From positions 7,580,028 through 7,644,027 of the forward strand of contig OZ020519.1 in the NCBI GenBank assembly GCA_963971425.1: DNA of 64,000 nt. The letters are read 5' to 3'. How positions within the stretch are numbered: the stretch's first letter is position 1; each line of letters opens with the position of its first letter. The stretch comes from Bryoerythrophyllum caledonicum. Its lineage: Eukaryota > Streptophyta > Bryopsida > Pottiales > Pottiaceae. Under the pieces are notes generated by a model. The model searched no databases. It saw only the letters and a program-made list of their open reading frames with translations, and was not told where the DNA came from. Below are positions 8,753 through 59,490 of this stretch, piece by piece. The translations under genes were made by a program, and so were the position numbers.

Positions 8753-9155
8753 GAAAAAACTCTAATTTAAGTCAATGCCTGAGGCCAACTCAAATAGTGT
8801 GATTGAGTTCCATGGAGTATTTTGTCCTTATGTAGGACAAGTTCCAAATGAATGTATTCTCTATCCGTATTGATGGTTGCCTTCAGTCTCAACAGATTGT
8901 ACTTGCGCAATTGAGACATGTCTGGATGGTTAGCTTCATCACACACAAGGTATGCTATTGAAAAGCCTACAGAGAAGAACAGATACAGTAACCATGTGTT
9001 TTTATTTTAAGTGTTTCATCTACAAAAATTCAAAAGGTGTGATAGATAGGAGGAATAGTTTGTGCAGAAACATTCAAGAACTTGTATAAAGGTTATAGCA
9101 TATCACTCCCCACTCTCAACAATACTTTATTCCTTTTCTGATAGGCCATGTGTGT
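8753..9155. other. AT-rich spacer between two TTAA elements
   Basis: No gene, RNA or domain recognised. Only short open frames. Confidence 0.4.
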
Positions 9156-9578: not shown

Positions 9579-11218
9579 TGAAAAGCCCACAATGTAGACT
9601 TTAAGAGAATTGGAGTCTTCCTGAAGAAGAAAACTCTCCAAAGAAGAAAGAGTAGAAAAAGACATGATGAAAATTTTTATGGACCAAAATAGAGAATTTT
9701 TTGTTTCATATTTTCTCCTATGCACCAATGAAATGCATGAGTAGTGACGGCAATCAATGTTTTTGGGCCCTATCCAAATCAAGTTAAAACTCCTCCATAG
9801 TACCCCAAGCTCATGAAGAGTTGACCAATAGTTTGACCACACCGTTCCCAAGCCAAGTAAGCATATCCATGTAGTCCGAGTCAGTAGCATATTTATAATA
9901 CCCTAAAATAGGGAAAATTTGATTGTATGCTCTTTGTTTTTTATTTAAGTTTAAAAGAAAAATTGCAACAACTTACTACTTATGTATCTTATTTTTCTTA
10001 TTTTTTAGGAAAATAGTTCCTTTTAAAAAAAACAATTCCCTAGTAACATGAAATTACTTATCATTTCAAATAAAATGTTATCTTTCTGGAACATGCTCAA
10101 GTGAATTGTATGTTGAGTTTATCCGAAGCTTCTTTTAATATTCTAATGTAGGAGACACTAGCAAATATAAGGATCTTTTATTGGCATAGGCGTGTAGAAG
10201 AGATGCACGTCAAGCTCCTTAGGCCACAATTACTACAACTATTTGTATTTCTATTGTGCGCAATAACAATGTAATTTTGCTAATAGTTTACAAACCTTGG
10301 CTTGACTTTATTGTTACTTAATTACTATGTGGCTCACTCTAACTTGAATGTAAACAAGTCAAAACTTAGAGTGTGCTATATACTGCCGTAGGTAGCTGTA
10401 AATGTGAAGCCGAGATAGGGGAGAGGAATAACTTTACACTAAATGTACAATACGTATGTAATCTCGTGTTTTTTTTCAAATGTAATAAGATGACAAATAG
10501 TGCTGAGATTTACATTTAATTTTAGCCTCATTGAAGCCTCTATTGACATTTAATGTATATGTTCATATTTTGTGTCTGTATTGATGTACAAATTAGGATC
10601 TTTGTTATTTTCCTATATATTTCATTCTACTTCAATAAGAAGCATGAACGGTTATTTGAACCGTTTGAATTTCCAATTGATAATGAAAAGAATGCTCTTT
10701 TATCGGAGCAATCTATGTAAAAAGACCAAACACTTAGAGGTATCTTCTTTTAACTTAGACGGAAAAGATTATTGCACATCAAATGAAACCAAAATTAATC
10801 TAAGTATATCATATGACTTTCCAGATAATCTACATTTTTATCAAAATAAATTGAAAATTTTGATTTCCCATCTATTTAAAAACTCTTGTTTTTGCAAAGG
10901 TAGGGGTAACCAATAAAGTAAAGAAAGAGAAACTTAAAGCCTAATGCTTAACTAAGTTACAAGGATGATTCATACAATTAAAATTGGAATTTAGCTCACT
11001 TCTCAATATGGTGGTTTATTATAATTTGAAATTTGACATATGATTGAAAACAAAAAAAAACTTATAAAGAAGATATTTATTGTTTAAGCAACCAAAATAA
11101 ATCATTTTATTTTACTTCAATGACAAAATTTGAAGAAATTTAAAGATCCTCCACCATATTGGTAATTCATAAATTCACATAAAATATACATTCACTACTC
11201 AATCAAATAATCATAGAC
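9579..11218. other. AT-rich intergenic stretch, nothing recognised
   Basis: About 1.6 kb of AT-rich DNA. The 114-codon frame at 10572-10916 (+) has AT-driven composition (Asn, Lys, Ile, Ser, Phe) and no motif. I see no TIR pair, tRNA-like box or LTR here. Confidence 0.4.
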
Positions 11219-18185: not shown

Positions 18186-18199
18186 CCATTCACCACCAA
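18186..18199. repeat. Target-site duplication of SINE (left copy)
   Basis: CCATTCACCACCAA, repeated exactly at 18556-18569 on the other side of the SINE. Confidence 0.85.
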
Positions 18200-18555
18200 G
18201 AAGAAGAAGAACTCCAATCTCCAAAGGAAACCGGCGTGAAAATAATGTTTGTTCATTCTCTTCACTAAGCATATGGCCACAGGACATAGGCTAGTATCAT
18301 AGAACTACTCCCCCCTCTCGAGGGTAAACACTTTTCTACACTAAGTGTTTCCCTACACTAACTGCCTCTAAGACAACCGACATGCCATCTCCCCCAAGGG
18401 CTTTGTGGATCCACACACAACAAGGCCTTGGGAATCCCCATCATAATTGGGTGGACTATGGTGGTAGGCACCACGCCGGCAATAGGACTTGAACTCACAA
18501 CCACCTCACCGGTGTGCCATGACCCAAACCACTACACCAAGGTCGTGGTGCTTTC
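18200..18555 (-). mobile_element. tRNA-derived SINE, complete, with 14-bp TSD
   Basis: Read on the minus strand the element begins GAAAGCACCACGACC and carries a pol III promoter: A box TTGGTGTAGTGGTT (plus positions 18527-18540) and B box GAGTTCAAGTCCT (18484-18496), about 30 bases apart as in a tRNA. It ends in a TTC-rich run. It is flanked by a perfect 14-bp duplication CCATTCACCACCAA (18186-18199 and 18556-18569). It has no ORF. Its last ~130 bases match the 3' end of the LINE at 38.1-41.5 kb, which would be its mobilising partner. A homologous-looking tRNA gene was not identified. Confidence 0.85.
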
Positions 18556-18569
18556 CCATTCACCACCAA
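18556..18569. repeat. Target-site duplication of SINE (right copy)
   Basis: Exact copy of 18186-18199, bordering the tRNA-related 5' end of the SINE. Confidence 0.85.
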
Positions 18570-18939: not shown

Positions 18940-19846
18940 TTAAAGACCCAAGGCATTTTCACACCAAAAACACTTTTAAACTGCTTGTTCTTGTGAAATG
19001 AGTAAGGAAGAAAACAAAAACTTTTATTTCTACCTCTAGCCGTAGGATCTCATGTAAGAGTTAAGAGTTATTAAGTGTCGTCCTCACAAATTTCCACAAA
19101 ACTTGACTACACGGATTGCAAGAATATAGTGTTTAAAGTCAAGCAAATGGTTCATTTTCTTCCCTACATTGAGTGGATCGGTAGACTTTGACTTCACTTG
19201 GTGTCACATTTTTGCACTATTCAAAGTCTAAATCCATTATCATTGTGTTAAGCATGATGTTGGTTCCTTATACACTAATTTTTAGAGGCATATGAGGGGT
19301 GTAGCATATTCAAAACAAATATGCAAGAAGTGGAGATTCCAATTTTGCCAATTCAACTAATATTTCTTTGTGAACTTAAAGTGTTTTTGATTGATTATCC
19401 AAATGGTGAATAAGAAGGTTTACACCACATTTTGTTGTGGAAAGTAAAAAGTATATTTTGGTACCTTGCCTGACAATGTGTGACAATGTGTGACAATGTT
19501 TGACTTGGGTTAATATGCTATCTTTTACTAAAGACAAGAGATTTCTTTTAACAATATGAAAGGAAATAATATTACTTGCCAGTATTGAAAATCTCACATT
19601 CAATAGAGTGTCCAAGTAAAAGTTTTTGGAGGTGCCCGAAGTGCCTGCTCTCCTTGTTTGAAATTCAAAACCTTATAATTTTTTCATGAAATGTTGGATT
19701 TAGAAAAAAATTGTTCTTCCATTGAGGTTTTAGTAATGCCCTTCTAGAGTAAATTTTTTAAAGAGGAATGACAAAAATTGACACCATAGGAATCTGAACG
19801 ACCTTTCAAAATGCCATTCTATCACACTTGGTCCTTTAGGGGTTAA
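18940..19846 (+). mobile_element. TTAA-flanked TIR element (family A), forward copy
   Basis: Begins TTAAAGACCCAAGGCATTTT (5' terminus worn) and ends GGTCCTTTAGGGGTTAA, with TTAA at 19843-19846. The interior follows the family consensus: GCATTTTCACACCAAAAACA at the start, and a triplicated TGTGACAATG near 19478-19500. No coding capacity; the ~80-codon minus-strand frame inside is fortuitous. Confidence 0.7.
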
Positions 19847-28390: not shown

Positions 28391-30120
28391 TTAACCCCTA
28401 AAGGCCCAATGTCCCCTCGGAGGACATTTTGAGTTTGGATAGGGTACCACGTTCTCAAATTTAGGCATGATTTTTTGAGATTTTTGTTGAATGTGCAACT
28501 TTTTATTAGCTTCCCATAGACATAATTTTCGTAGAAATCCGACTTACGGTTCAAAAGTTACAATTTTTTTCAGTGGCATATTCAAATAGTGCAGTGGTTT
28601 AGTGTGACATATAACAAATAGTGTAACAATACTTTAATTAACTCTAAATTGAATAGAAATTTGAGTTTTTGTCCATTTAAGGGGGAAAAAATCCTCTTGG
28701 AAAGAAAATGGAAATCTTTGCATCTACAATACAGATTTTCGAATTTCAAAATAAAAGAAGGATATGATATATGCAAAAATTGAAGTGTATTCTTGATTCT
28801 TAGCACCTAGTTGCATTGTAGGATTTTTGACCCCTAAAGGCCCAAGGCATTTTCACACCAAAATCACCTCAAAATTGCTTGTTCTAGTACAATGAGTAAT
28901 AAGGCAATCAAAACCTTTTATTTCTACATCTAACAGTAGGATATAAATCAAGACTTATTCGTTGATGTCCTCACAAGATTTCACAAACTTCAACCGCAGG
29001 GATTAAAATATTAGTGTTTGAAGTAGAGGAAACTGTTCTTTTTGACCCCTGCTTTGAGTGGATCTGCATACTTTGACTACACATGGTGTCAAATTTTTGC
29101 ACTACACAAGGTCCGAAAACATTACCATCGTGTTAATCATGATGTTATTTCCTTGTATAGCGTATTAAAACATGTGTGCAAGGAGTGGAGGTTCAAAAAT
29201 TGCCATTTCACGTTTTACTTTTTTATGAACTAAATATGTTTTAGAATGAAGATCCGAATGGTCGATAAGAAATTTTACACCACATCTTGTATTAGAAAAA
29301 ATCAAATGTAAGAAATATGAAGATCTCTAAGTTTTATAGGGAAAAGAAGAAGTTCTTTTATTACCTTGCCTAACAAAGTGTGACAATGTGCAAAAATGTT
29401 TAACTTAGATTATTATGCTATTCTCTACTTAAGACAAGAGATTTTTTTTTGACAATATGAAAGGAAATCATATTATTTGCTAGTATTGAAAATCTCACAT
29501 TCAATAGATTGTCCTAGCAATAGTTTTGGAGTTGCCAGACGTGTCCAATCTCCCCATTTGAAATTCAAAACCCTATAACTTTTTCATTAAATGTCGGATT
29601 TAGGAAAAAAAATTGGACTCACATAAAAGCTTTTGGCAATGTCCATCTATAGTAGAAATTTAAAAAATGAACGTTATAATTTGACACCATAGGAACGTGC
29701 CCAAACCTTCAAGGGTCCCCCAAGGGGACTCTTGGGTCTTTAGGGATTAAGGACATCTTTTACCTCTCTTCTACTTCTAAAATTTGGTGCACATATGCCT
29801 ACCATGATCCCTTTTAAGTTAAAATTAGAATATCATGGAGTGTAGTGCAAAAAATGCCATAGAAGATGGTCAAAATTTATTGAAGGTGTTTAGTATGACC
29901 TCAAGAAGAGCTTATGTCTCACTTCAAAGGTTGATATCTTTCAATCCCTGCGGTCAAACTGATTAAAATTTTTACCACATACACTTGTACAATCCCAGTG
30001 CAAGATCCTACTGTTAGATATGTAGAAATTGGATTTGTTTGTATTTTGTGTTGAATGCATTGAAAATGGCAAATTTCAGTAAGTTTGGGTGCTAAAATGC
30101 CTTGGGCCTTATGGGGTTAG
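28391..30120. mobile_element. TTAA-flanked element (family A-prime), interrupted by a nested family A copy
   Basis: Begins TTAA CCCCTAAAGGCCCAAT at 28391 and ends CTTGGGCCTTATGGGGTTAG at 30120. Without the insert (28827-29750) it is ~810 bp and aligns along its length with the split copy at 61575-63731 (GGACATTTTGAGTTTGG, GGTACCACGTTCTCAA, GTTGCATTGTAGGATTTT, CAAGATCCTAC and others). Its ends are the same as those of family A but the interior is different, so the two are separate subfamilies with shared termini. Confidence 0.75.
28827..29750 (+). mobile_element. TTAA-flanked TIR element (family A), forward copy nested in A-prime
   Basis: Left end TTGA CCCCTAAAGGCCCAAGG, right end CTTGGGTCTTTAGGGATTAA. 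It sits inside the A-prime element between GTAGGATTTT and GGACATCTTTTAC, which are contiguous in the sister copy at 63361-63380. About 920 bp, no coding capacity. It carries the family hallmarks GCATTTTCACACC, TGGTGTCAAATTTTTGCAC and AAGAAGTTCTTTTATTACCTTGCC. Confidence 0.75.
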
Positions 30121-30744: not shown

Positions 30745-31057
30745 TGTTGAGAGACTCAAGTGAGAGAGGGAATGAGACGAGCAAAAGAGCAAGAGCTCCT
30801 CCTCAGATCCAGGGTTTAATCCCCGGAGGTTGGTACATTAGGAGTCCGTTCACTGGTGATAGGATCCTCATGTCGTACCATTAGTGGTAGTTAATCTAGT
30901 ATTAAGTGTCATGATCAGGTGGTAATCCCGCTACAATATGGTAATCCCACTATGATACGGTTAGGTGAACCGTACTAGGTCTAGGGTAGGTCTAGACTAG
31001 GTCCTAGTTAGTGGAGGACCCTGGAGTGGATGGATGTGCTATCATCCTATCTTAACA
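30745..31057 (-). repeat. 3' LTR of copia element
   Basis: 313 bp, differs from the 5' LTR only at the fourth base of its last eight (TCTTAACA against TCTCAACA). It contains the internal near-duplication GGTAATCCCGCTACAATAT / GGTAATCCCACTATGATAC. Confidence 0.93.
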
Positions 31058-31118: not shown

Positions 31119-32006
31119 TCACCGTTCGCCTAATTCTCCCAGGGTTCGCATTCCGGCTGCCCTGATGAGTTTTCGATGTTGGTGTGCGGGAAGTGCCTTT
31201 GTTAGGACGTCGGCTATGTTCTCTGCTGAAGCAATCTTCTTTACTTGAATCTGGTTTGTGTCCGTCAAGTCCTGTGTGTACCCGAAGATATGAGGGCTGA
31301 TGTGTTTTATTCTATCAGCTTTGATGAAGCCCGAGGTGACTTGTTCCACACACGCGGCGTTGTCCTCAAAAATCATTGTTGGCTTGTCCGAGTTGACGAT
31401 CCCACACTGTTGGAAAATGGCCTGTTGCATCGTCCTCAGCCATACGGCCTCCCTGGACGCTTCGTGGAATGCAAGTAATTCTGCATGGTTGGTGGAGGTG
31501 GCTGTCACGGTCTGCTCGGTGGATCTCCACGAAATTGGTGCGCCATTCTTCACGAAGATGTATCTTGTTTGGGACTTGCCTGTAACAGGGTCGTTCTTGA
31601 AACCAGAGTCGGCGTAGCCAATGATATCATTGCCGGCGTTCTTCTTAAAATGTAGACCAAGGTCTTCAGTGCCGTGTAAGTAGCGTAGGAGATGTTTGAT
31701 CCCCTGCCAGTGGCGCATTGTAGGTCGTTGGTTGTGCCTTGCTAGTACGCTGACTGCAAATGATATGTCGGGTCGCGTGTTTGTCGTGAGATAGAGTAGC
31801 GCTCCCACTGTTGCTAAGTACTGAGTTTTATCGACCTCCTCCTCGCCGTCGTCAGCGAGTCTGTAGGGGTCGTCTTCGGTCTTGCTTCGACCGATCATGG
31901 GCGCGGACAATGCATTCGCGTTTTCCATGTTGAACGTGCTCAGGAGCTTTTTAACATAGGTCTGTTGATGAAGTCGGGATAGTGCTGTACCTGTAATCCA
32001 AGGCAA
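31119..32006 (-). pseudogene. Copia RNase H domain segment (frame 3 of broken pol)
   Basis: Open frame of 295 codons. Text: HQQTYVKKLLSTFNMENA, TVGALLYLTTNTRPDISFA, GYADSGFKND (first catalytic Asp of RNase H), SWRSTEQTVTATSTNHAELL (with the catalytic Glu), FEDNAACV (Asp), FIKADRIKHISPHIFGY, and ENIADVLTKALP near the end, followed by the natural stop. This is the typical C-terminal end of copia pol. It overlaps the RT frame because of a small indel near 31975-32005, so the listed start is not biological. Confidence 0.9.
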
Positions 32007-32794
32007 TACGACGTGCGGCCTAACACTTTCATTTCAAAAGTTTTGGTTAGAATGCTCTCCACATGAGCGCATAAGGCTGCAGTGCCAATGGAGTTTAAGT
32101 CATCGACGTATACTGCCAATATGACGAATCCTGATTCGTCCCGCAAGACAAATACATAGGGTAGTGCTGGATGATTAGAAAATCCATGCACAAGTAAGAA
32201 ACTTTTCAAATGGTGGTACCATGCCCTACCCGCCTGCTTTCTCAAGCCGGTGAACTTGCCGGGCTTGGCAGGGCTTACAGTAGGTAAGAAATCAGGTGGC
32301 GGTTTAATATGGATTTCCGCGTCTAAATCTCCATAGAGATAGGCTATTACTACATCGAGTAAGCGTGTTTCAAGCGTCATTTCGACCGCGAGGCTAAGTA
32401 TATATCTAAATGATGTACTGTCCATAACCGGGGAATAGGTCTGTTCGAAATCAATGCCAGGTTTCTGGGTGTAACCCTGGGCTACGAGCCGGACTTTGAA
32501 CCGAACCACATGTCCGTGTTCATCACGTTTACGCGTGGAAATAAGTCTGTGTCCTATTGGTTTAGTGTCCAAGTTCGTGATTAGTGGTCCAAAGACACCA
32601 CGTTTACGTAGGGATTGGTATTTCGTCTGTAGGGCAGTTTCCCACTGCGGCCAATCGGATCTACGTTTAGCTTGGTCTAGGGTCATAGGGTCAGAGTCGA
32701 GGTTAGTTAATCTCGAGATAAATACTTCTGGCTCCTCCCATGGGACTCTAGTGGACTCTATCAGTGTTGACGTGATACGTCGGTCCATGTGCAT
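31940..32794 (-). pseudogene. Copia reverse transcriptase segment (frame 2 of broken pol)
   Basis: Open frame of 284 codons plus upstream text in the same frame (VAPAKKRKTRHSSPVPST from about 32880). Landmarks: WPQWETALQTKYQSL, KVRLVAQGYTQKPGIDFEQT, YSPVMDSTSFRYILSLA, LLDVVIAYLYGDLDAEIHIK, the catalytic YVDD box (LAVYVDDLNS), CLGLQVQH before the frame breaks. Of the usual FLHG-type stretch, AYLYGDL is intact. The polymerase core shows no stop. Confidence 0.9.
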
Positions 32795-32865
32795 GGTGGC
32801 TGCATGTGCGTGCGAGGTACTAGGGACTGGACTAGAGTGCCGTGTTTTCCTCTTTTTTGCTGGAG

Positions 32866-34575
32866 CTACAGGTACTGTGTTACCCGAGCCTGGATTGGAT
32901 TCCTGATTATACGTGGACCTGACTGAAATCCGTCTGGGATTTTCTCAGCTAGGTTCTTTAAATTAATTATTTTGCGGACCTCTGCGTCTGCTAGCGTGGT
33001 TCGAGGATGAGGGTTCAAAGTCAGAGTCTCTAAGGCTCTAAAATTCAAGTCAGTGTCTCGACCTGGGTGTAATGAACCTGGGAATTTATTTTCCACGAAC
33101 TTACAGTTCTGGAATCTGGCTTTGTATAAAGCATCGCTAGTTGGTAATTTATATCGTATTATACTAGGTGTGTCATAACCTAGGTAGATGGCCTTGTGCC
33201 TGTGAGGTGCGATGGTTTTTAATTTTGGTTCGGGTAGAGGTATCCAGACCTCAAAAACGAAAGTGCGTAAGTGCGCTATGTGGGGTATGCGTCCTGACAT
33301 CAGCTCTAGTGGGGTTTGGGTGAGCAACATGGTTGGTCTAAATCTGAGAAGTAGAGATGCGTGTAAGACCGCATGTCCCCACATCGAGGGGGATAAACAT
33401 GCATGAAGTAATAAGGGTCGAACTACAAGCTGCAGTTTCTTTATGTATGCCTCAGCGAGGCCATTCTGTGAGTGCTCATAGGATACCGAGTATGTTAGTT
33501 CTATCCCTGAGGCTATACAAAAGTCCTCGAAGGCTTGGGATTTGAACTCTATAGCGTTGTCCATTCTTAGGAAACATACTTGGTTATCAGGGAAATGGTT
33601 CCTGAATCGTAGGATCATAGCTAAGGTTTTTGAAAAAACCATGTTCCTAGTCGTTAGCAACGAGACCTCAGCGTGTCTACCCGAAGCATCGACTAAAACC
33701 TAAAAGTACTTGAACTGACCTGATTTCTGTGTGATTGAGCCGCAGACGTCACCCTATAGGCGATATAAGGCAGCTGGCATCTCCGCCGGTAACTTCCATT
33801 GCAACGGTTGCCTTATGAGCTTGCCTTGAATGCAGGCTTCACACGCGTCCACGTGCTCCGCGTAGCTAGCGCAGAGGCCGTGACCGGTCAACATGGGAAT
33901 CATCTTCCTCATGATAGTTGTCCCAGGGTGTCCAAGCCGGCGATGCCACACATCCGCTTTGCTACTTGCAACGTGATATGTTGCTTTTTCGCTTTCCTGG
34001 GACAGGCAAGGGGTACTAGCTCTTAGCCGTGAGGCCCTCGAGTGTTCACCAGCCTCTTCTTTACTCAAATGAGCAAGGCTTGCTTCCATATCAGAGATGG
34101 TAAGCTTGTATAGGCCATTGACTCCCGCGCGTGCGGTGGCGAGGATCCTCGGCCCTTGCCTGAGTTCCAGCGCCTCTTCATCGTTCGCACTCGCAGTGGA
34201 AACGTGGATACGGTTCGCTCTTAAGTCTCGGTAGCTGATCAGGCTACGAGGAGCGTCCGGGGCGTACATAGCCCGTTCACAAATCAAAGGGTGTCCTCCG
34301 GGCAATGCTATTGTTGCCCGGCCCTCACGAAATCTGAAATTTCGTCGCCCTGCGATGGTGACGATGTCACAACATTGCCATGGGTCGTTTTGATTTGTGA
34401 ACTCAAAGAACCTAGAATCCTGCAGTATGGTATGAGTTGATGCACTATCGAGCAAAGCTATTTTTGCTTTGGCCGTCTGTGATACTCTCTGGACCATATA
34501 TATCTCAGGATCTAGTTCGCAGAGCGTGAGGGATGGTACATCAAGAGTGTGGGTTTCTCTTTTCCCATCCTTCAA
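32866..34575 (-). pseudogene. Copia protease and integrase segment, interrupted by two TAG codons
   Basis: One frame in three open pieces. 34575-33754: aspartic protease core ALLDSASTHTIL (usual D-S/T-G-A replaced by D-S-A-S), then integrase zinc-binding region WHRRLGHPG...CEACIQGKL. A TAG follows LYRL, then GDVCGSITQKSGQFKYF, a second TAG, then VLVDASGRHAEVSLL (first catalytic Asp), LRMDNAIEFKSQAFEDFC (second Asp; the usual D-N-G reads DNA), YSVSYEHSQNGLAEAYIKKL (Glu is expected and present), SMWGHAVLHASLLL and the GYDTPSIIRYKL C-terminal region. The frame is lost around 32920-32945. Confidence 0.9.
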
Positions 34576-34578
34576 CGC

Positions 34579-35502
34579 CTAGAGTTCCTTAAACATCTCA
34601 GTGAAATAGTGTGGAGCACGACATTCTTTGGCATAGTGTCCCTTTCGGCCACACTTATGACAGGCTCCTTTAACACTCTTACTGGACGACTGAGACGACT
34701 TGTCTATTTTTGGTTTGTTTGCATACCTTTTGTGCGTTGAACGTTCACCTTTCGGTTTGTTCCATTCACCTTTTTGTTTGCGCTTAGGTGCATCTGTGAC
34801 GTGTGACTCGCGGCTGGGGTTCGACTCCTTCTTTGTGGACGAAGTCCCCGCGCTTGGAGTCTTCGACGTCTTGTCAATCTCGCTCGCGCGAACTTCCTTG
34901 GTTGGGCGAGATTTTGCGTTCTTGAGCAGTAGCTGTTGTTGCTTCTCGGCTAACAGCAAGTATGACATTAGTTCTGAATGTTTTGTGAATTTCATGTTAC
35001 GGTATTGCTGAGCTAAAATCGCACAAGCAGGAGGAAAGGTGGACAACGTCTTATCTATAAGATCGGTGTCGGTGAGTCTGTCTCCACAGAGTCGGAGTTG
35101 TGCCGCTATCCTGTGAAGCTCGGCGTTGAAGAGAAGGAAATTCGGAAAACCCAGTACGCGGAGGTTTATCCAATCACTCCGTGCCTGGGGCAGAAATATA
35201 GTCTCCTCGTGCTCGAAGCACGCCTCTAGCGCCTTCCACATCTCCGAAGGTTCATCAACTTGTATGTACTGCTGTCTCAACGATGTGTCGAGGTGACGTC
35301 TTAGGATGAGCAGCGTCTGCCATATGAATGGTGGTGGTAGGTCCACCGCGATTGTCTCGTCCAGAGCTCCGATTAGTTCCTCTGCACACAAGTAGGTGCG
35401 TACGTCAATACTCCACTCGAGATAGTTAGACCCATCAGGTTCCAGTGGATCGAAATAAAGTGGCTGTGTCCGGGTCTCCCGGACTCGAGGCAGTGTTGCC
35501 AT
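34579..35502 (-). CDS. Copia gag with CCHC zinc knuckle
   Basis: 307 codons starting MATLPRVRETRTQ and ending at TAG. Capsid-type helical region (EWSIDVRTYLCAEELIGALD, DTSLRQQYIQVDEPSEMWKA, LRLCGDRLTDTDLIDKTLST), a Lys/Ser-rich linker, then the nucleocapsid knuckle C281-x2-C284-x4-H289-x4-C294 (CHKCGRKGHYAKEC). The stop at 34579-34581 is in the same frame as the protease that follows just four bases later, so gag and pol are separated by a single codon. In many copia elements gag and pol are one ORF. Whether this TAG is a mutation or a functional separator cannot be decided from one copy. Confidence 0.88.
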   Translation of the reverse strand: MATLPRVRETRTQPLYFDPLEPDGSNYLEWSIDVRTYLCAEELIGALDETIAVDLPPPFIWQTLLILRRHLDTSLRQQYIQVDEPSEMWKALEACFEHEETIFLPQARSDWINLRVLGFPNFLLFNAELHRIAAQLRLCGDRLTDTDLIDKTLSTFPPACAILAQQYRNMKFTKHSELMSYLLLAEKQQQLLLKNAKSRPTKEVRASEIDKTSKTPSAGTSSTKKESNPSRESHVTDAPKRKQKGEWNKPKGERSTHKRYANKPKIDKSSQSSSKSVKGACHKCGRKGHYAKECRAPHYFTEMFKEL

Positions 35503-35889
35503 GCATGTAGGTTCTATCGTGACCTAATTCGTGTAGATTCTAGGAGGTGAAGCTAAGTGTTTGTTCAAAGGCTCAGTCGCTAGGATCTAGGTTTTCAATC
35601 AACGTGTGCATATAGTCACTGCGAGTGAACAGTCAGTGGGTTGTCTCTCTCGACGTCTACTGTTCCTATGAACAGGATCTCTGGGTATCGATAATTGTGA
35701 CTGTGTATGCTCTGTCGACGTCCACTGTAATTGTTGACAGTATTTCTAGACGTCGAACTATACTATGCTCCCTTTCCCTCTTCGCTGGTGTGCTCATTGA
35801 TCAATGTGGACTCAAAAAATAAAACCTAAAGACAATCGTGAGGTGATCTATGGTCGATCCGCTCAGTAGAAGGGAAAAAAAATCAGGAT

Positions 35890-35914: not shown

Positions 35915-36227
35915 TGTTGAGAGACTCAAGTGAGAGAGGGAATGAGACGAGCAAAAGAGCAAGAGCTCCTCCTCAGATCCAGGGTTTAATCCCCGGAGGT
36001 TGGTACATTAGGAGTCCGTTCACTGGTGATAGGATCCTCATGTCGTACCATTAGTGGTAGTTAATCTAGTATTAAGTGTCATGATCAGGTGGTAATCCCG
36101 CTACAATATGGTAATCCCACTATGATACGGTTAGGTGAACCGTACTAGGTCTAGGGTAGGTCTAGACTAGGTCCTAGTTAGTGGAGGACCCTGGAGTGGA
36201 TGGATGTGCTATCATCCTATCTCAACA
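35915..36227 (-). repeat. 5' LTR of copia element
   Basis: 313 bp, TG...CA ends with 8-bp perfect terminal inversion TGTTGAGA/TCTCAACA. Followed by the second TSD copy CTAAT (36228-36232). Confidence 0.93.
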
Positions 36228-37097: not shown

Positions 37098-38072
37098 TTG
37101 ACTACCTAAATTACCAAGAAGGTTCGGGCAGGTTCTTGTTGTGTCAATTTATAACATTCTTTTTTGAAGTTTTTATTGTAGATGGACATTGCTAAAAGCT
37201 TTGTGTGAGTCCAGTTTTTTCCTAAATCCAACATCTAATGAAAAGTTATAGGGTTTTGAAGTTCAAATGAGGAAAGCGGGCACGTCAGGCAACTTTTAAA
37301 ACTATTGCTAGGACATTCTATTAAATGTGAGATTTTTAATACTAGCAAATAGTATCATTGCCTTTCATATTGTCAAAAAAAATATTGTCTTTAGTGAAAA
37401 ATAGCATATAATTCCAAGTCAAACGTTTTCACACATTGTCGCACATTGTCAGGCAAGATACCAAAAAATCTTCTTCTTTTCCACATAAAACTTAGAGATC
37501 TTCATAAATTTTATTTTTTATTTTCCCCACGGCATTATGTGGTATAAAAATTCTCATTGACCATGCATATTATCATTCTAAAACATATTAAGTTAACAAA
37601 AAAATAAAATGTGAATTGACAATTTTTGAACCTCCACTCCTTGCAAAAAAAAATTAAATATGCTACACCCTTTTTTTACCACTAAAAATTGGGGTACAAG
37701 GAATTAATATTGCGCTTAACATGGTGGTAGAGAATGTAGACCTAGTATAGTGGAAAAACTCGACACCAAATGAAGTCAAAGTCAGCAAATCCACTACAAG
37801 CAAGGAAGAAAATAAACCCTTTTCTAAACTTCAAACACTATATTACCTCTAAATTACCTATATATATGTGCAGTCAAATACCATATATATACCATATATG
37901 AAATATTACCATATATCCGTGCACTCAAATTATGTTAATTGATAAGTTTTAACTGAGATCCTACAGTTTAATGAGAAATAAGAGTTTTGGTTTTCTTCTT
38001 TACTCATTGCACTGAAACAAGCAACTTTGAAGTGTTTTTGGTTTGAAAATGGCTTGGTAATTTAGGAGTTAA
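37098..38072 (-). mobile_element. TTAA-flanked TIR element (family A), reverse copy
   Basis: Left end TTGACTACCTAAATTACCAAG, right end CTTGGTAATTTAGGAGTTAA: the two ends share the variant CCTAAATTACCAAG, so the TIRs of this copy match each other better than they match the family consensus. The interior is colinear with the 46.8-kb copy (e.g. GTAGATGGACATTGCTAAAA, TCTAATGAAAAGTTATAGGG). AT-rich insertions of ATATAT type occur near 37860-37915. Confidence 0.7.
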
Positions 38073-40143
38073 ATAAAAGAATAAACATTACCTGAAGGAA
38101 TGTTGAAGACCGTGATAATGATACATATACCATGTTCGTCAATTGTGTTCTTGTCGTAAACATATTTGGTCGAACAAAACCCATAACCTCCCTAGACTCG
38201 ACCAACACCTATCCTCTAAACTTCTACAAAAACTACTATGTGTAAACATCAAATTACACTACCAAAATGGTACACACCTTATAGAGAAAAATAACTATAA
38301 AACGTTTTATGGTACTCCATACAAGCTTCTAAAATGTGTGTTCAATGATTCGTAACAACTATTTTCCATGCCTTTCTACATACCTTCCCACATGCCCCAC
38401 TCACATCCCACCTCGCACACTAAAAGAACCATACATCATCCATAACAATGACATCCAACCAGGTATCAATTCTCCTCCAAACCCCCAAACCCACCACACC
38501 CATCCCCTCCCCCACTGCCACATATATTAAAAAAATCCTATTACATATCCTATCAACAACATTATCAATCACAAATATAGAAAATATGGAGGCTTTAACA
38601 ATACAAGCAAAAAAGACACATCATATCTATGCCTTTGGCAACACAATATTACAACCTATAGTAAATGGCTCTCGCAAAGAAAGCTTTTTCCCTGGCACAA
38701 TCAAAAAACCTTTCTCCATAACACCGAAATCCTTAAACAATACTACCATAAAGTCCAAAACAACTTTTACCTAGGAATCATAAAACTACATCACCCCCAA
38801 GTACAACTTAGAGATACAAGGTTTGTCACACCGCCCATCATCATCCCCTTCCTTAATGCCCCCATGATAGAATGTAACCCGGAAACCGACATTCTCATAC
38901 AAATGAACACAATAAAAATACAACAAGATAATGTTTTCATATATGAAGGAAACGGTGGGCACCTAATCACTATACAAATCGCTAGACTACAATGGTTGTG
39001 GTTCCAATACCATGATGCAATACAAACTCCCATGAACATTGAACCACACCTCAACCATTTGAAACCGAAATCGTTTGGCTACACCAAAGATACAAATATT
39101 GTATACCAAAAATAACCCCCTTAAACATGCACGTTACACATAACCCCTTCTATAATAGACTCTATTATCACATCTTTTAACGTAACACAATCATACTTTT
39201 CATCTCCTGTCAAATGTTCTACAAAAATTTCAAAGTTTCACTCTCCATTTGTACGGGATAAAATATTTGGTTCACTAGGGAAAGCATTTGACTACAGGTG
39301 GAATGGAATAGGCCTCGCACACCCACAAAATGACAGGACCACAAAATGCAATACATTCGGCCCGCTTAGCGGCAAACAACAACCCCAACCATACCACCAC
39401 TATCATTATCACACCCGACACTAATGGGTACCAAAACTTTAATCCACACTTGGGCCCATTTTCGGACTCCCACATCATAGCACTATTTGAAGCAGATTCA
39501 ATTTTGCATATTGAATCCCCTATACCGTCAGAAATACAAAAATCCAGACTTGAACCATCAACCTTACGTGTCCTATGTGTACATCATCAAAACTGAGAAA
39601 TTTGCACATTAGAACACCTTGCTCAACTTACACTAATCGCAAAAAATCTCAACATCAACAATGTGTGTACCGCAATTGCTCCACCCACACCTACACTAAT
39701 CCGTGTAAACCGCAATAAAAAGTGGTCTAAGACCCCCTATATAAACAACTTCACACCAATAACCCCTCCAATCCCCTTAATTCCCAAATACCAAACTTAC
39801 ACCGTCTAAAATTTCACCCCAACTTTACTTATTACACAGGCGGTTCCTTTCAAGAACCAACCAAAGTAAGTCCGCGACATTGGCACCAGGACAAAGCCGG
39901 CTATGGATATAACAACCCCACCAAACAAATCAAACTTGCCAAAAGACTACTAGGACTCCAAAATATCCTTAGAGCCAAAATGATGGCTATCCATGAAACC
40001 CTCAAGATAATTACCATGCAATACCCCAACGAACGAGCACACATTTTCACAAATTGCATTAATGTATTCTACCTCCTAAACACACACACATAAAACATCC
40101 CACTCAACACAATAGTCATCCAGACCAAACTATCCTAACATCC

Positions 40144-40656
40144 ATGGTCGGAATGCTCCAAAATTGCACACAAATCACCACACTCCATAAAGTTCAAGCT
40201 CACGCTAACATTGACAGCAACAAACAAGCCGACAAATTAGCAAAGAAAGGTCAAAAGAAAGCCTACCGAGATGCCAAACACCCATACAAACATGCTTATG
40301 CCACCCCATACTACTTTCATAGATATGAATGGCCCTCTATGGACAAAACCCTCAACAAAGGCCCCATAAGATTCTTGGATAAATACCTCAAAAAACACAA
40401 CCTAAAAAATCATTTGGAAATACTTACAAAAAAATTCTCTAATATTAATAAATGGACCGGTAATACAAGCATTGACAAAGAACTCTCCACCAACTTTTGG
40501 AAAAACCTCATAGTCACGGACTCGCCAAAAAAATGCCTAATCAAATTCCACTCCGAACAATATATGGGAAACTCTTGTAAACAACTCTTCTTTGGCATAG
40601 AGAGATTCCCCTCCATAACATGCTCAATTTGCAACACCACATATCCGGGCACATGA
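40144..40656 (+). pseudogene. Longest open piece of LINE ORF2: end of RNase H and downstream region
   Basis: 170 codons containing the C-terminal RNase H helix (KVQAHANIDSNKQADKLAK, with the catalytic D), a basic linker (TPYYFHRYEWPSMD, KGPIRFLDKYLKKHNLKN), LIKFHSEQYMGNSCKQLFFG and SITCSICN. In the preceding piece the usual catalytic Asp (YTDGS) reads YTGGS and the Glu in RAEL reads RAKM, so the enzyme is inactive. Confidence 0.75.
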
Positions 40657-41373
40657 TTGCACGTTTTACTCAAATGCCATAGCCCTCATATACACGCCCT
40701 AATTGTCAAACGTCACAACAAAGCGGTATGGACAATCCGTAAATTAATCGTGTCATCAAACATATCTTGTTGCTTCATCCTCATGAATGCCAGAACCTTT
40801 AATGACAACCTGCAAGAAAATACGGTCCCTCCATGGTTATTACCAAGTATACGAGGTACTCAAAGATATCATTGAAATGCAAGATTTAAACCTTACCTAT
40901 TATGTGTTAGAGGGCTACCATGCAAAGACTCCCCACCAACCCACATAGACCCAAATCTCACTTTTTAATTTATTGAATTCAAATGTTGTAATGATAGATT
41001 TTCACTGGAAGCTATTTCAAACAAAACATATAAATACCAACCACTCCTCAATGATATTCAAGCACTCGGATGGAAAGTAGCCCCCTCCTTGTCATCACCG
41101 CAAGTGCTAGAGCCACCACCTTTATTCCTTCAATGACAATTCTTGAAGAAACATTCAAAATTTCCATGACTTCAATGAAGACCACCTTTACAAATATTAA
41201 CACTATTGCAATCCAACATGCTATGTCCATACTCCAACCCAAAAGGAAACTCGAAAACAACCAACCCATCTCGGACACGCTAGACCCCCCTTGAAAACCT
41301 ACTAAAAACTTCACCACCTTAGCCCCCTGGAGTCATCAATTCTTTGTTCTTGATTACTTGTTACGTGGTACAT

Positions 41374-41515
41374 AGTGTCTACCCTTGAGAGGGGGAAGTA
41401 GTTCCATACCACTAACCCATGTCCAGTGAGCATGACTTTAGTGGTGGAACGAACAGACACTTTATTCACGTCGGCTCCCCTTGGGGACTAGAGTTCTTCT
41501 TCTTTTGCTCTTGTG
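41374..41515 (+). repeat. LINE 3' tail shared with the SINE at 18.2 kb
   Basis: Aligns over ~130 bases with SINE positions 18332 down to 18200 (minus): TACCCTYGAGAGGGGGRAGT, then ...CATGTCCAGTG / CTATGTCCTGTG, TTCACGTCGG / TTCACGCCGG, and AGAGTTCTTCTTCTT / GGAGTTCTTCTTCTT at the end. Confidence 0.8.
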
Positions 41516-41739
41516 GTATGAAACTTTCACTGTAGTATCCTTAAACATTTCTTTTTGAGGATTGTAAGAAGTTGGAAGCTATCACACTCTTTTATGTCCA
41601 ATTTCTTTAATTCTAGGATTATCAATTATCAATAACCTTTGCCAACCCTTATTTTGAACATTATTGTGTGATCATTAATTGTTTTAAAAAATTCAAAGTG
41701 CTCATCACATATGCACTTTTAGTAAAGTATTATTACTTA

Positions 41740-46800: not shown

Positions 46801-47754
46801 TTAACCCCTAAAGGCCCAAGAGTACCCTCGGGGAACTTTGAAGATTTGGGCACGTTCCATTGGTGTCAATTTATTACATTCCTTTTTAAAATCTAGATTG
46901 TAGATGGACATTACTAAAAGCTTCGTGTGAGTACAAATTTTTCCTTAATCCGACATTTCATGAAAAATTTATTACAGTGTTTTGAATTTCAAATGGGGAG
47001 AGCGAGCACTTTGGGGAAACTTCAATTTTTTTGCTAGAACACTCTACTAAATGTAAGATTTTCAATGGTAGCAAGTAATATTATTTCCATTCATAGTGTC
47101 AATAAAAATTTATTGTCTTTTGTGAAAATTAACACATCAATTCAAGTCAAACATTTGCACACATTGGTCACGCATTGTTGGGTAAGGTACCAAAAAAACT
47201 TCTTCTTTTCCATATAAAACTTCTAGATTTTTTTTTAAATAAAAAATAATTTTTTTTACTACAAAACGTGGTGTAATCCTTCTTATCAATTGTTTGGATA
47301 ATCAATTTGAAACATATTTAGTACACAAAAAATAAAACGTGAATAGGCTATTTTCAAACCTCCACTCCTTGCACAATTGTTTTGAATATGCTACACCGCT
47401 TTTCTACCTCTAAAAATTTGTGTTCCAGGAAACAACATCATGGTTAATATGATGGAAATGACTTTAGAGCTTTTGTAGTGCAAAAACTTTACACCAAGTG
47501 AAGTCAAAGTGTCGACCCACTCAAGGCATGGAAGGAAATGAACAAGTTTCTCTACTTCAAATACTATAATCTTTCAATCCATGTGGTCAAAAGTTATGGA
47601 ATTTTGTGAGGATGTTACTTAATAAGTCTTAATTGAGATCCTATAGTTAGATGAAGAAATAAAATTACCTTGTTTCCCTCCCTACTCATTGCACTAGAAC
47701 GAGCAGTTTTGAAGTGTTTTTGGTGTGAAAATGCCTTGGGCCTTTAGTAGTTAA
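46801..47754 (-). mobile_element. TTAA-flanked TIR element (family A), reverse full-length copy
   Basis: The cleanest copy: TTAA CCCCTAAAGGCCCAAG at the left, CTTGGGCCTTTAGTAGTTAA at the right, perfect TTAA on both sides. 954 bp. The interior runs opposite to the 18.9, 28.8, 48.8 and 58.5-kb copies. No ORF. It would serve as the reference sequence of the family. Confidence 0.8.
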
Positions 47755-48842
47755 CAAATGCTTTAAGTTTTTTCTCTCGATGAATATTTTTACCTATCAT
47801 GTTGACAATAATCACCCTCTTTAAGTAGTATAGACAGTTGAACTCCAAATCAAAAAACTTCGTCAAAGCTGAAAGTAATAACGCTCTCAAATCATAAAGT
47901 ATCACTACACTAAACATAATATTTAGTGTAGCTTTCTGGAATCCAAAAGTGATTCTAAAATGTGGGGGGTGCTCTAAACCACTAGATCATTATCATGGGT
48001 TATACTAGTAAACAATTTTAGTGCACTAAAATCACATATCTTTAAGTTTGATAGTTGAGATGATTGTCATCCGTCTCTCCACCCACTTGTCATATGTTTG
48101 ATATATTTTCATCCAACACCAGCCCACAGTACTAATTTGTTATGGGGATGTGTGAAATCAATGGATTTGGACTCATAGCGGGAACTGAGTGGTGAGGTTG
48201 CTTGATTTCCCGAGGAAAAGCTGATGCTCAGCTTATTTACCGGCACCACTGCTGACATTCATGGCACTGCTGCTGCAGCTTGATGATGGTCCGCCTGCCC
48301 GCCTGCAAGCGGAAATTTATGGTGGCAATGATTGTACAGCACATTTGATTGTGTGTTACTCACGCCTCTGCTGCTTAGTTTACTTCTCTCGGGACTGTAG
48401 CCGACGTCGGTACCTTGCTTGGGTTGCACGGTAAAGAAGTAGTTGGATCCTCCATGCCCCAAAATTTGTTGTAAAAGTCTTTCGTGAAGAAGTAAAGTCA
48501 GGGTAAGATGTAAGGTAACTTCTGTGGTTACAGACCGAAAACCAGTAATCAACACCTATAAAATTGGGGTATAGTCAACCCACTTCCATCCCATTACCAC
48601 CCATTTAGCTTCAAATGGTGGTCTGCTACTTATCATGATTCCTTGCTTTTGGTTGACACTGATGGTGGGTATCTATTGGCGGCCAATGGCTTAACATGGC
48701 ATCACACTTTGAAAATCTATAACAAATTCACATTTTACTAAAAAATTTAAAATGAAATCACTTGAATTGAGATTGTAAATCTATTGGCTATCTTTGAAAA
48801 ATGAATGTATTATCATTTGTTCTCTCCATATATGCACATTGC
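47755..48842. other. Spacer, nothing recognised
   Basis: A 98-codon minus-strand frame at 48555-48259 lies in a slightly GC-richer patch (HHKFPLAGGQADHHQAAAAVP at its end) but has no recognised domain; perhaps a relic exon. Confidence 0.3.
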
Positions 48843-49415
48843 TTAACCCCTAAAGCCCCAAGGCATTTTCACACCAAAAACACTTCAAAACTGCTCCTCC
48901 AAGTGCAATGAGTAAGGAGGGAAACAAACACTATTAAATTTCTACATTTGAACATAGGATCTCAATTAAGACTTATTAAATAACGACCTTGCAAAATTTC
49001 ACAAACTTTGACCACATGGATTGAGATATTATAATACTTCATGTATTATGATATCTCAATCCGTGTGGTTAGTGGATCAACAGACTTTGATTTCACTTGG
49101 TGTCAAGTTTTTGCAAAACACAAGGTCTAAATTCATTACCATCATGACAATCATGATGTTATCTCTGTGTACACCACTTTTTAGAGGTAGAGAAGGGATG
49201 TAGCATATTAAAAACAATTTTGCAAGTAGTGGCGGTTCAAAAATTGCCATTTCACGATAAACTTTTTTGTGAACTAAATATGTTATAGAATGAGAATCCA
49301 AACGGTCAATAAGAAGGTTCACACCACATCTTGTAGTAGAAAAAACAAAATGTAAAAAATATGAAGCTCTCTAAGTTTTATGTGGAAAAGAAGAAATTGT
49401 TTTGGTACCTTGCCC
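48843..49415 (+). mobile_element. TTAA-flanked TIR element (family A), forward, 3' truncated
   Basis: Starts TTAA CCCCTAAAGCCCCAAGG and follows the family through GGTACCTTGCC at about 49412, where similarity stops abruptly; the right third is missing. Inside, at ~49022-49070, the phrase GATTGAGATATTATAATAC is followed by its near-inverse GTATTATGATATCTCAATC, a small palindrome not present in the other copies. Confidence 0.65.
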
Positions 49416-55907: not shown

Positions 55908-58199
55908 TCTCAAAAAATTTGTCCGTTGTCTTCTTTTGAGTGGCATGAAATTTCAATTTTTTTATAGGAATTTGATGAAATTTGAAATATTTTTAGTAAT
56001 TTTTTCCTTGCTCCTATATTCCCCCCCGGAAAAAGTTTGGATCAAAAAGTTCTTTATATGTACTAACATGATGTTTTCTCTTACACTTTACCATACTTAC
56101 ATGAGTGTAGTTTTACTGGAACATAAGATATGCACAAATATTGTAGTAAACATGGAAAAAAATGATTAGGAAGCCAAATTTTGTTCCTATGATGGCACAT
56201 GTTTGCATGGGCAAAGTTGTCCGCAGTTGCCATCCTCAATGGCCTGCATTTGTTATAGCCACCTCTACCTCTAGATAAAGTCAAATCTTGTGCAATGGCA
56301 CCAGATAAATCAAACATCCATATTTTGGTTTACATATTTCATACAAGCAACCACACTTGATGCACCTATGATCCACTCTTAAGTTGAGAAAGAAATTGGT
56401 CAAATGTACATGTGCCTTATCCATCCACCCCTAGTAACAAGGCCATTGTGTGTGGCAAACCAACTCATACAACAATTCATGACAAAATCAAGGCCTCCTT
56501 CACGATAATTGGACTGAATATGGTATTTGCATGCACGTGAAGAGGTGTATGTTGAGAGAACTATATATGCAAATTCACTTCAAAAACTCAAACTCTTCTT
56601 TATATTTTTATTGTTTTTGGTTATCAAGTGCAAAAACTTGCATGTTTTTGTCGTTGCTTCATGCACTTGACCAAGTGCATAATTGCTTAATTAGCACTTT
56701 AAAAGTACTCCATACCAAAGGTCAACCCTTCTTCTTTTTATGGTATATAGTTTTACTTCTTGGAAATTATTTCAAATTTGATGAGCTATGATAATAGATA
56801 CAACTATTGGTTCCAAGAGAATTAATTCTCAAAAGAAGGTAGTAACTCTATTCCATCTACATATGTCCTACTAGCTTACGCTCAGTGGAGCGAACAAGCA
56901 ATAACTATATTTGCATTGGTTTCCTTTGTTAACTAAAATTCAACTTTCAATCTCAATACTTTGTTGTTATGGTCACTAAGAATTTATTTTCATGTGCAAC
57001 CAAAGTCTTTATTTGTAAATGTTGAATTCTTCAAAGATAGAATATAAAAATTCATTAAGACTCTAATAATGAACTATCCAATCAATTGGATTTCAATGTT
57101 TTCCAAGTTTATGAATGATACAATGAAAATAAAACCACCTCATGTCCTTAAAAATGTTTCAATATTTAAAATTCTTTTGATTCCTGTAGCATATTTTTTT
57201 TCAACCTCAAACCACATAACATGATGGCAAATGAGACTTTGGTCAGTGAGAAGTTGCTAAACTATTTTAATATCCATCTTTTTTTGGAGATGTACCAAAA
57301 CTCATTAGCCTTATGTAAAATATAGAAAATCAAGCTCCAAAACGAATATCAATGTGTCTAAGATGACTTTGAACTACAAGAAAATGAACAAGAATATCAT
57401 AAAATTGCAAGGGTTGGAAGGGCTTGGATAGTTCTAAGAGACCAACAAGTATAAAAATGTGCTAGTCTACACCTTGCATATTATATATTTGTTGATTTAC
57501 TTAGACCATCTTTCCTCTAGTAAAGAGATTGGTGGTTCTAATTCCAATTCTAAAATTGATTTTCTTATGAACAAAATGGATCTTTCCTAGAGTTGCAAAT
57601 ACTTTATGAATGGTTGCAAGAAGTTAATCCATCTCTTCTACTTTACAAAACACGAATCTCTAAAAGATAAAAACATCATGAAGGGTCTTTTACACTTCAC
57701 GTAGATTTATATGATCTCAATTACAAATTTTTGAATGTTTTATATAGATGTGTCAATGTAGTAGCTTTGTGGAACAATAAATTATTTTTCAACCAAGTCT
57801 CTATTGAATTTTCATTTTATTTGAAGTACAATGCAATCAAATTTGAGCCATAATACTTGCTATACTCTTATCTACCATTGGATTTTCTTGTACAAGTAAC
57901 TAGTATTATCTCCATATAAATTGTGAAGAAATGACAGCATTGACTGCATTAACTCCATTTAAGGCAAGTCAAGGCTTTTTCCATATCCTCCCATGGAAAG
58001 AACTAGAAATCTTCCTGCTTTCCACATGAAAAGTAAAGAATTTATTATCTTTCTATTCTATCTAATTCAAGATGCATTATAGACCTTTCTTTTTATTGTT
58101 TCGATTTGCAGCCTATGGAAAATTAAACTCACAAGAAGTTTTAACGTGTTTCGACATATAATGAACCTGAGTTTCTTACCCAAATCTTCTAAAATTCCT
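55908..58199. other. AT-rich spacer, nothing recognised
   Basis: About 2.3 kb of AT-rich sequence with short frames on both strands. No TIR, LTR or domain noticed. Confidence 0.45.
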
Positions 58200-58541: not shown

Positions 58542-59490
58542 CGAACCCCTAAATTTCATTGACAATTTCAGACCAAAAACACTTCAAAATTGCTTGTTTT
58601 AGTGCAATGAGTAAGGACAAAATAAAAACTTTTACTTCTAGTTTAAACCGTAAGATCTCAATTAAGACTTATTGAGTAACTTACGTTAAAAAATTCATAA
58701 ATTTTGACCGCACGGATTGTAATATTATAGTGTTTGAAGTAGAGAAAAGGGTCCATTTTCTTCCCAGCATTTCATGGATCAATAGACTTTGACTTCACTT
58801 GGTGTGAAATTTTTGCACTACACAAGGTCTAATTTAATTTCCATCATGTTAAGCATGACATTAGCTCCTTGCACTCCCAATTCAAGAGGTAGAAAAAGAG
58901 TGTTGCATATTCAAAAAAATTGTGCAAGGAGTGGAGGTTCAAAAATTGTCAATTTGCGTTATAATTTTTGTGAATTTAGAATGTTTTAGAATGAGAATCT
59001 GAATGATCAATAAGAAGTTTTACACCACATAATGTTGTGGGAAAAGTAAAAAGGAAAAAAGATGATCTCTAAGTTTTATGTGAAAAAGAAGAAGTTTTTT
59101 TGGTACCTTGCCCGACAATGTGCGATAATGTGTGAAAATGTTTGACTTGGAATTATATGCCTTTTCCACTAAAGACAAGAGATTATTTTTGACAACTTGA
59201 AAGGAAAAAATATCACTTGCTAGTATTGAAACATCTCACATTCAATAGAGTGTCCTAGCAAAAGTTTTTGGAGTTTCCCAATGTGCCCGCTCTCCCCATT
59301 TTGAACTTCAAAAATCTATTACTTTTTCATTAAATGTTGGATTTAGGAAAAAATTGGACTCGCACAAAGATTTTAGTAGTGTCCATCCACATTAAAAATA
59401 TTAAAGAAATTTGTTATAAAATTACACCATAGGAACCTGCCTAAACCTTCAAGAGTCCCGCAAGGGGACTCTTGGAAATTTAAGGGTTAA
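58542..59490 (+). mobile_element. TTAA-flanked TIR element (family A), forward copy
   Basis: Left end CGAA CCCCTAAATTTCATTG (tetranucleotide mutated from TTAA), right end CTTGGAAATTTAAGGGTTAA with TTAA at 59487-59490. Interior standard (CACTTCAAAATTGCTTGTTT, TTGCCCGACAATGTGCGATA). No ORF. Confidence 0.7.

Follow-up and report, generated by a model that had tools for sequence, protein, structure and literature searches.

UnaL2 with UnaSINE is a stringent-type SINE/LINE pair. In zebrafish L2 elements, deleting or swapping the stem-loop of the tail abolishes retrotransposition, and the region between the endonuclease and the reverse transcriptase (RT) binds this stem-loop, according to the part of the work cited here (PMC4176376). 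Within the green lineage, SINEX-1, SINEX-2 and SINEX-4 of Chlamydomonas pair with RandI/Dualen LINEs, with (ATT)n or (CTTT)n repeats (PMC3747384, sections cited); the same sections of this 2013 review list no more than three tail-sharing SINE/LINE pairs for flowering plants, and propose an ancestral stringent recognition in green plants that was relaxed later. Dualen elements are defined by an APE together with a restriction-like endonuclease (RLE), and an RNase H is reported for them in the pages cited (PMC4640811); the portion cited of a 2015 survey places Dualen/RandI under green algae only (PMC4438587).

The sharing of a tail by a SINE and a LINE is in itself of a known kind. We describe such a pair in a 64,000-nucleotide window (the whole stretch of DNA that was analyzed; C7:7580028-7644027) of a 437-Mb assembly of 894 contigs, which was the genome searched; loci and contigs carry our own numbers (L and C). 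With a probability of about 0.86, the shared segment serves a probably still mobile LINE family as its 3'-terminal recognition domain, and was gained by a tRNA-type pol III RNA to yield a SINE that would be copied by the same enzyme.

The shared segment in the window

An earlier note on this DNA had claimed that about 130 bases at the 3' end of a SINE align with the 3' end of a LINE, and pairwise alignment confirmed the homology: SINE positions 18332-18201 (minus strand) and LINE positions 41374-41504 (plus strand) are identical at 101 of 131 aligned positions, with one 1-base gap and a score of 68; 200 dinucleotide-preserving shuffles averaged 12.4 and never exceeded 16. The segment begins with AGTGT and ends with TTCTTCTTCTT in SINE and LINE alike. 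A covariance model (R1) built from the tails of both families finds the SINE and LINE places at 140.6 and 130.3 bits, both places being in its training set. A third, much older relic of the tail is also predicted (Table 1), next to which blastn with L051 (SINE) and L047 (LINE) found no adjoining SINE head or LINE body; a further R1 match at 10347-10481 is at chance level (E 0.91).

The LINE copy had been described as decayed and as lying at 38-41.5 kb. The decay was borne out, and so was the copy itself, its start being near 38158 instead of 38000. Across 1.27 kb it shares 85% identity with the next copies among the matches listed, and the score of its candidate TSD is reached by 1% of 2000 random place pairs. 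The SINE and LINE copies are about 23 kb apart; both families match most of the large contigs listed, so this nearness looks accidental.

Table 1. Positions of SINE, LINE and tail features in the window
Feature	Position	Strand	Basis
SINE copy, 5' head to (TTC)n tail	18199..18551	-	92.6% over 353 bases to copy L051; 21-copy alignment; consensus
SINE 5' TSD	18556..18569	-	14/14 identical to 18186-18199
SINE 3' TSD; first two bases possibly part of TTC tail	18186..18199	-	perfect 14-base match to 18556-18569
Putative tRNA-type internal promoter: A box 18539-18529, B box 18494-18486	18486..18539	-	consensus motifs
SINE 3' tail, presumably LINE-derived	18201..18332	-	alignment and R1
LINE copy, 5'-truncated, decayed, subfamily A	38158..41506	+	alignments to other copies begin at about 38158-38166
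LINE 5' TSD, probable, decayed	38143..38158	+	13/16 identical to 41503-41518, score 10
LINE 3' TSD, probable, decayed	41503..41518	+	13/16 identical to 38143-38158
PCIF1-like remnant	39190..39500	+	window frame with FGSLGKAFDY...GIGLAHPQN; limits approximate
RNase H remnant	39828..40253	+	PF00075 on 40063-40653, E 0.0031, below cut-off; limits approximate
CCHC knuckle and presumed restriction-like endonuclease remnant	40620..41290	+	position and motif in relatives
LINE 3' tail, common to SINE	41374..41506	+	alignment and R1
Predicted domain closed by P1 (41375-41380/41455-41460), with P2 (41382-41386/41391-41395) and P3 (41398-41424/41428-41454)	41375..41460	+	coordinates from alignment columns
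Predicted terminal hairpin P4, then TTCTTCTTCTT	41468..41494	+	coordinates from alignment columns
Third tail relic, strongly diverged, much older	56820..56951	+	R1 33.4 bits, E 1.1e-5

Other contents of the window comprise a bestrophin and gene remnants recognized by eye (an NB-ARC-like stretch, and leucine-rich repeats that include LPESIGNLK). Together with a Copia element they suggest a plant, presumably a land plant, as the host. The Copia open frames (31119-35523) lie between identical 300-base direct repeats (30745-31044 and 35915-36214; by eye); these are probably LTR segments, and the Copia element would then have inserted very recently. Another dispersed repeat family is represented by numerous copies, at 60-91% and in either orientation (8190-8758, 18941-19815, 28824-29610, 37118-38078, 46832-47760, 48851-49415 and 58544-59452), and includes the sequence just 5' of the LINE copy.

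The SINE and LINE families

At least 39 further genomic places match the 5' part of the SINE at 91-93%, and 20 of these (L051-L070) were combined with the window copy into a sample of 21, picked by similarity to one copy. The family consensus comprises 350 bp, starts with GCACCAC and ends in (TTC)n. The A box reads TRGYNNANNNG and the B box GWTCRANNC; consensus positions 13-23 (TGGTGTAGTGG) and 58-66 (GTTCAAGTC), respectively, fit these motifs, a weak indication of a promoter since neither ARAGORN nor Rfam gives a tRNA in the SINE head. In the head, the ends GCACCA...TGGTGC may resemble tRNA-Gly. Between the SINE head and 12 LINE loci no similarity was detected (best blastn match, E 0.8). Of the 21 copies, 15 diverge from the consensus by 1.7-4.3% and the window copy by 6%, and the five others, whose tails are broken or rearranged, by 7-17%; the sampled copies appear to form one young family. 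Whole SINEs are surrounded by TSDs: the own-flank scores of 15 of 21 copies lie above the 99th percentile reached by 420 mismatched flank pairs (median 11 versus 5), and scores of 8 or more are reached by 17/21 own flanks and by 20/420 mismatched pairs. The family is short, non-coding and dispersed in copies with TSDs, and carries the presumably LINE-derived 3' tail as well as the A/B box motifs, as is characteristic of tRNA-related SINEs.

The LINE body was sampled with a 1.27-kb probe; 40 copies among the matches listed were scored, and 30 loci were taken, the window copy included. A complete copy on C8 is bordered by ..AG-TGTCTACCCTCG on its 5' side and by (TTC)n-TGTCTACCCTCG on its 3' side, i.e. 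a 12-base TSD (by eye), with about 17 extra bases ahead of the common 5' start; another complete copy, on C6, has TGTATTATCATTG at both sides (13-base TSD, by eye). These TSDs lie outside the elements, and the tail is therefore the true 3' end of the LINE. TTC-type ends were found at 20/20 and 37/37 loci in two sets; the tail alignment A1 (described below) contains a few decayed rows with a T-rich end, and a poly(A) end in none. The tail is present in LINE subfamilies A, B and C and in the lineages L111, L112 and L113, with upstream 3'UTRs that are diverged or differ in length (54 to 152 bases); R1 scores 131 bits at the 3' end of L111, a lineage with a 3087-codon frame, and 100 and 119 bits for the two other lineages, L112 and L113.

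A genome search with PF12237 gave 2614 first-look candidates, of which 150 rows were scored, all over the cut-off; an open frame of exactly 3087 codons, with the same score, is present in 33 of these best 150 of 2614 rows (counted by eye). Together with at least 40 genomic places that match the L111 tail at 100%, these frames indicate that the LINE lineage is probably active.

Pairs of 3087-codon copies are situated 10-11 kb apart on C6, C7 and C8, and the identical or near-identical 3' flanks of the C7 and C8 pairs (L133/L134, L127/L128) point to local duplication. Two recent LINE copies (L114, L115 with L117; C12, C8) are inserted into older LINE tails and share their insertion base, AG^TGTCTACC; in at least three other copies (L141, L146, L151) the 3' flank matches antisense LINE sequence. 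Apart from the duplicated pairs, the LINE may prefer LINE-rich DNA or a short TGT-type target.

In L047 (subfamily B), a single stop separates two open frames that share a reading frame. The predicted domains are an APE endonuclease (PF03372, E 5.4e-7; PF14529, E 1.9e-7; both over cut-off), an RT (PF00078, E 3.1e-28), a PCIF1-like domain (PF12237, over cut-off at E 5.3e-10; L047 6195-6590) located between the RT and the RNase H, and an RNase H (PF00075, E 6.1e-12, over cut-off). Against solved structures, the RT matches R2 RTs best (E 1e-32), and matches chain 8c8j, which we take to be human L1, with E 7e-17. The C-terminus shows C-x2-C..H-x4-C followed by PD, E and K..KY (by eye, four-row alignment A2), with the exceptions that L039 has no PD and that L042 and L039 have altered knuckle cysteines. 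These motifs suggest a knuckle and a putative restriction-like endonuclease as in R2/Dualen elements; PDB phmmer, a PDB profile and Pfam gave no support for this endonuclease. By domain content the LINE is set beside Dualen/RandI, short of an assignment to Dualen, the RT comparison covering solved structures only. A plant L1 as partner was ruled out by the domains, by an RT nearer to R2 than to the L1 chain, and by (TTC)n instead of poly(A).

The dN/dS values for L047 versus L049 are 0.04 for the RT (a rough value, with dS 2.5 and saturated synonymous divergence in the RT piece), 0.14 for the PCIF1-like domain, 0.05 for the RNase H and 0.08 for the C-terminus; the PCIF1-like domain appears to be under purifying selection. 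Its matches to solved PCIF1 chains (E 0.01 and 0.57) cover the surroundings of the NPPF motif. NPPF is the catalytic motif of PCIF1, and the corresponding site in the LINE reads AHPHN or similar, which makes methyltransferase activity doubtful. Upstream of the APE region, DIETNPGP is found at L047 1480 (other frame), L049 1057 and L041 1615, and a related motif, DINPNPGP, at L041 357. We take DIETNPGP to be a 2A peptide signature, which suggests that an N-terminal protein may be separated co-translationally.

Fold of the tail RNA

The consensus tails of SINE and LINE are predicted to take the same fold, with four helices (P1-P4) followed by (TTC)n. The structure model was derived from the fold of L038 and extended by hand. 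Alignment A1 comprises 44 tails (29 LINE and 15 SINE, window copies included); L001 and L009 (the window copy again), L012, L014, L016, L018, L022, L023, L031 and L033 as well as the SINE loci L053, L054, L056, L060, L067 and L069 were omitted, mostly for interrupted or incomplete tails. In A1, 85.7% of cells are paired, and 90 double-changed cells compare with 44.7 in shuffles (0/500 reach 90) and with at most 42 for slid structures; two of the five covariation measures are no better than shuffles, i.e. double-change pairs (20 versus 16.6; 46/500) and pair types (55 versus 54.4; 245/500). With 67 model-fitted rows, an alignment that leans towards the structure, 87.5% are paired, 105 double-changed cells compare with 47.8 in shuffles and at most 53 for slid structures, and for each of the five measures at most 7 of 500 shuffles reach the observed value. 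Relatedness among rows inflates both tests. P4 is paired in 74-77% of cells in the two sets.

The earlier note had suggested building consensuses of both families and folding the shared tail in search of a conserved stem-loop. Consensuses were built for the SINE and for LINE subfamilies A, B and C, and their tails fold alike: each folds alone into the same architecture, with 38-40 of 42-44 pairs in common and z from -2.7 (SINE; -3.5 for the CCGG variant) to -4.1, and compensatory differences among the four consensuses occur in 6 of 46 pairs. A conserved fold is thus present, in the form of a four-helix domain and not of a single stem-loop. The single, decayed copies in the window behave less clearly, the LINE tail folding poorly (z -0.39) and the SINE tail having another minimum-energy fold (z -1.1); unaided RNAalifold on the 44 A1 rows, decayed copies mixed in, returned 13 pairs only.

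Origin of the shared tail and comparison with known pairs

The tail was found by BLAST at 27 of the 30 LINE-body loci (the exceptions being L014, L016 and L033). A LINE body is present upstream at 24 of 27 LINE-tail loci, window excluded (L002-L008 and L071-L090; L084 repeats the L047 element, and the row of the L017 element was left out as a duplicate); at L006 and L079 the LINE remnant consists of the last 3'UTR bases only (by eye), and L002 is tail-only. For the SINE, 20 tail-selected loci sampled from at least 39 other matching places all have the SINE head within 280 bases upstream, eight of them being clearly 5'-truncated and L105 keeping the last 28 head bases. Tail-only insertions do occur: L008 is an inverted tail within a LINE 3'UTR that starts at tail position 4 (GTCTACC) and has a clear TSD, and L002 starts at the same position (both by eye). 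Such copies would be expected if an independent tail-only repeat had landed separately in the SINE and in the LINE, the alternative named in the earlier note; they are also explained by 5' truncation, which seems to have occurred repeatedly at the P1 helix. In the sampled loci, the separate-repeat hypothesis is contradicted by the contiguity of the tail with LINE body and SINE head, by TSDs that lie outside the whole elements, and by the common starting base of the shared segment in SINE and LINE subfamilies, and we regard it as extremely improbable.

Within the LINE, the tail is conserved at least as well as coding sequence, as expected for a cis signal. Identities in tail, preceding 95 bases and coding sequence are 116/129, 54/88 and 1081/1266 for L047 versus L049, 113/130, 55/82 and 1025/1247 for L047 versus the window copy, and 112/130, 55/91 and 1030/1261 for L049 versus the window copy, i.e. 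86-90%, 60-67% and 82-85% in these three subfamily comparisons; two comparisons with L041, the tail of which has a deletion, gave 84-85%, 66-69% and 82%. Its occurrence in six LINE subfamilies and lineages (A, B, C, L111, L112 and L113), despite diverged upstream 3'UTRs, argues that the tail is old in the LINE and was probably transferred from LINE to SINE. The reverse, a LINE ancestor that took the tail from the SINE, would fit the homology as such, which has no direction, and nothing specific speaks for it; the sampled SINEs seem to be one young family, albeit chosen by similarity to one copy, and we hold this course to be very unlikely. The SINE consensus tail shares 81-84% identity with each of the six LINE tails compared, among which no subfamily has a tail nearly identical to that of the SINE, so that either the true partner subfamily lies outside the sample or recognition tolerates 16-19% difference. 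The same difference would also be seen if the SINE tail were left over from an earlier partnership and another LINE were now used by the SINE; since young SINE copies keep the fold, the (TTC)n end and a sharp tail boundary, and the SINE-LINE differences include compensatory changes that preserve helices, we consider this unlikely.

The reading of the segment as a LINE recognition domain gained by a pol III RNA agrees with the proposal of the earlier note that the shared tail is the signature of a stringent-type pair, which is supported by contiguity, outer TSDs and the conserved structured tail. The LINE protein would most likely bind the tail in its folded form, in which P1 encloses P2 and P3 and is followed by P4, and target-primed reverse transcription would start at the (TTC)n end. 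An RNA of tRNA type with a pol III promoter would have acquired exactly the tail domain at its 3' end, from base one, and the resulting SINE would be copied by the LINE enzyme. By analogy with described pairs, we infer binding of the tail, a strict requirement for it, and mobilization of the SINE in trans by this LINE.

A wider interpretation, tentative and in our view rather doubtful as a whole, is that the LINE represents an unreported land-plant kind with two endonucleases, an RNase H, a PCIF1-derived domain (cap-adenosine methyltransferase-like, NPPF lost) perhaps used for RNA recognition, and possibly a 2A-like peptide, which is undergoing an amplification burst and feeds a SINE via its 130-nt four-helix tail. 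In the literature collection searched, neither a PCIF1-bearing LINE nor this SINE/LINE pair was found to be reported. A pair in a plant-like genome with a non-L1 LINE, a large, well-defined RNA domain and recent long-frame copies offers a system in which to test how an R2-like enzyme recognizes RNA, and bears on the distribution of dual-endonuclease LINEs.

The likenesses and differences to known pairs refer to the parts of the sources cited. With ZfL2-1 and ZfL2-2 the LINE has in common a structured, conserved 3' tail that is followed by a short tandem repeat and is shared with SINEs (PMC4176376). Stringent pairs have one stem-loop, whereas the predicted domain described here comprises about 130 nt and four helices with a closing P1 and a TTC repeat. 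As in Dualen/RandI elements, the LINE has an APE, an RT, an RNase H (for APE and RNase H in Dualen, PMC4640811) and a putative C-terminal knuckle with PD..E..K-like motifs; unlike in these elements, a PCIF1-like domain is located between RT and RNase H. For the putative RLE, profile searches gave no support. The SINEX and RandI/Dualen pairs are likewise green-lineage SINEs with tails of dual-endonuclease-type LINEs and non-poly(A) repeats, but the present pair has a TTC repeat, a host that resembles a land plant, and tRNA-type A/B boxes, whereas SINEX promoters are listed as unknown (PMC3747384). Maize ZmSINE2/3 with LINE1-1_ZM (L1), and tobacco TS with RTE, also combine a tRNA-type SINE with a LINE 3' end (PMC3747384). 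In contrast to these pairs, the partner domains of the present SINE do not resemble those of L1 or RTE (R2-like RT, PF00075-type RNase H), and the shared segment comprises about 130 nt, compared with about 50 in the maize group (PMC3747384).
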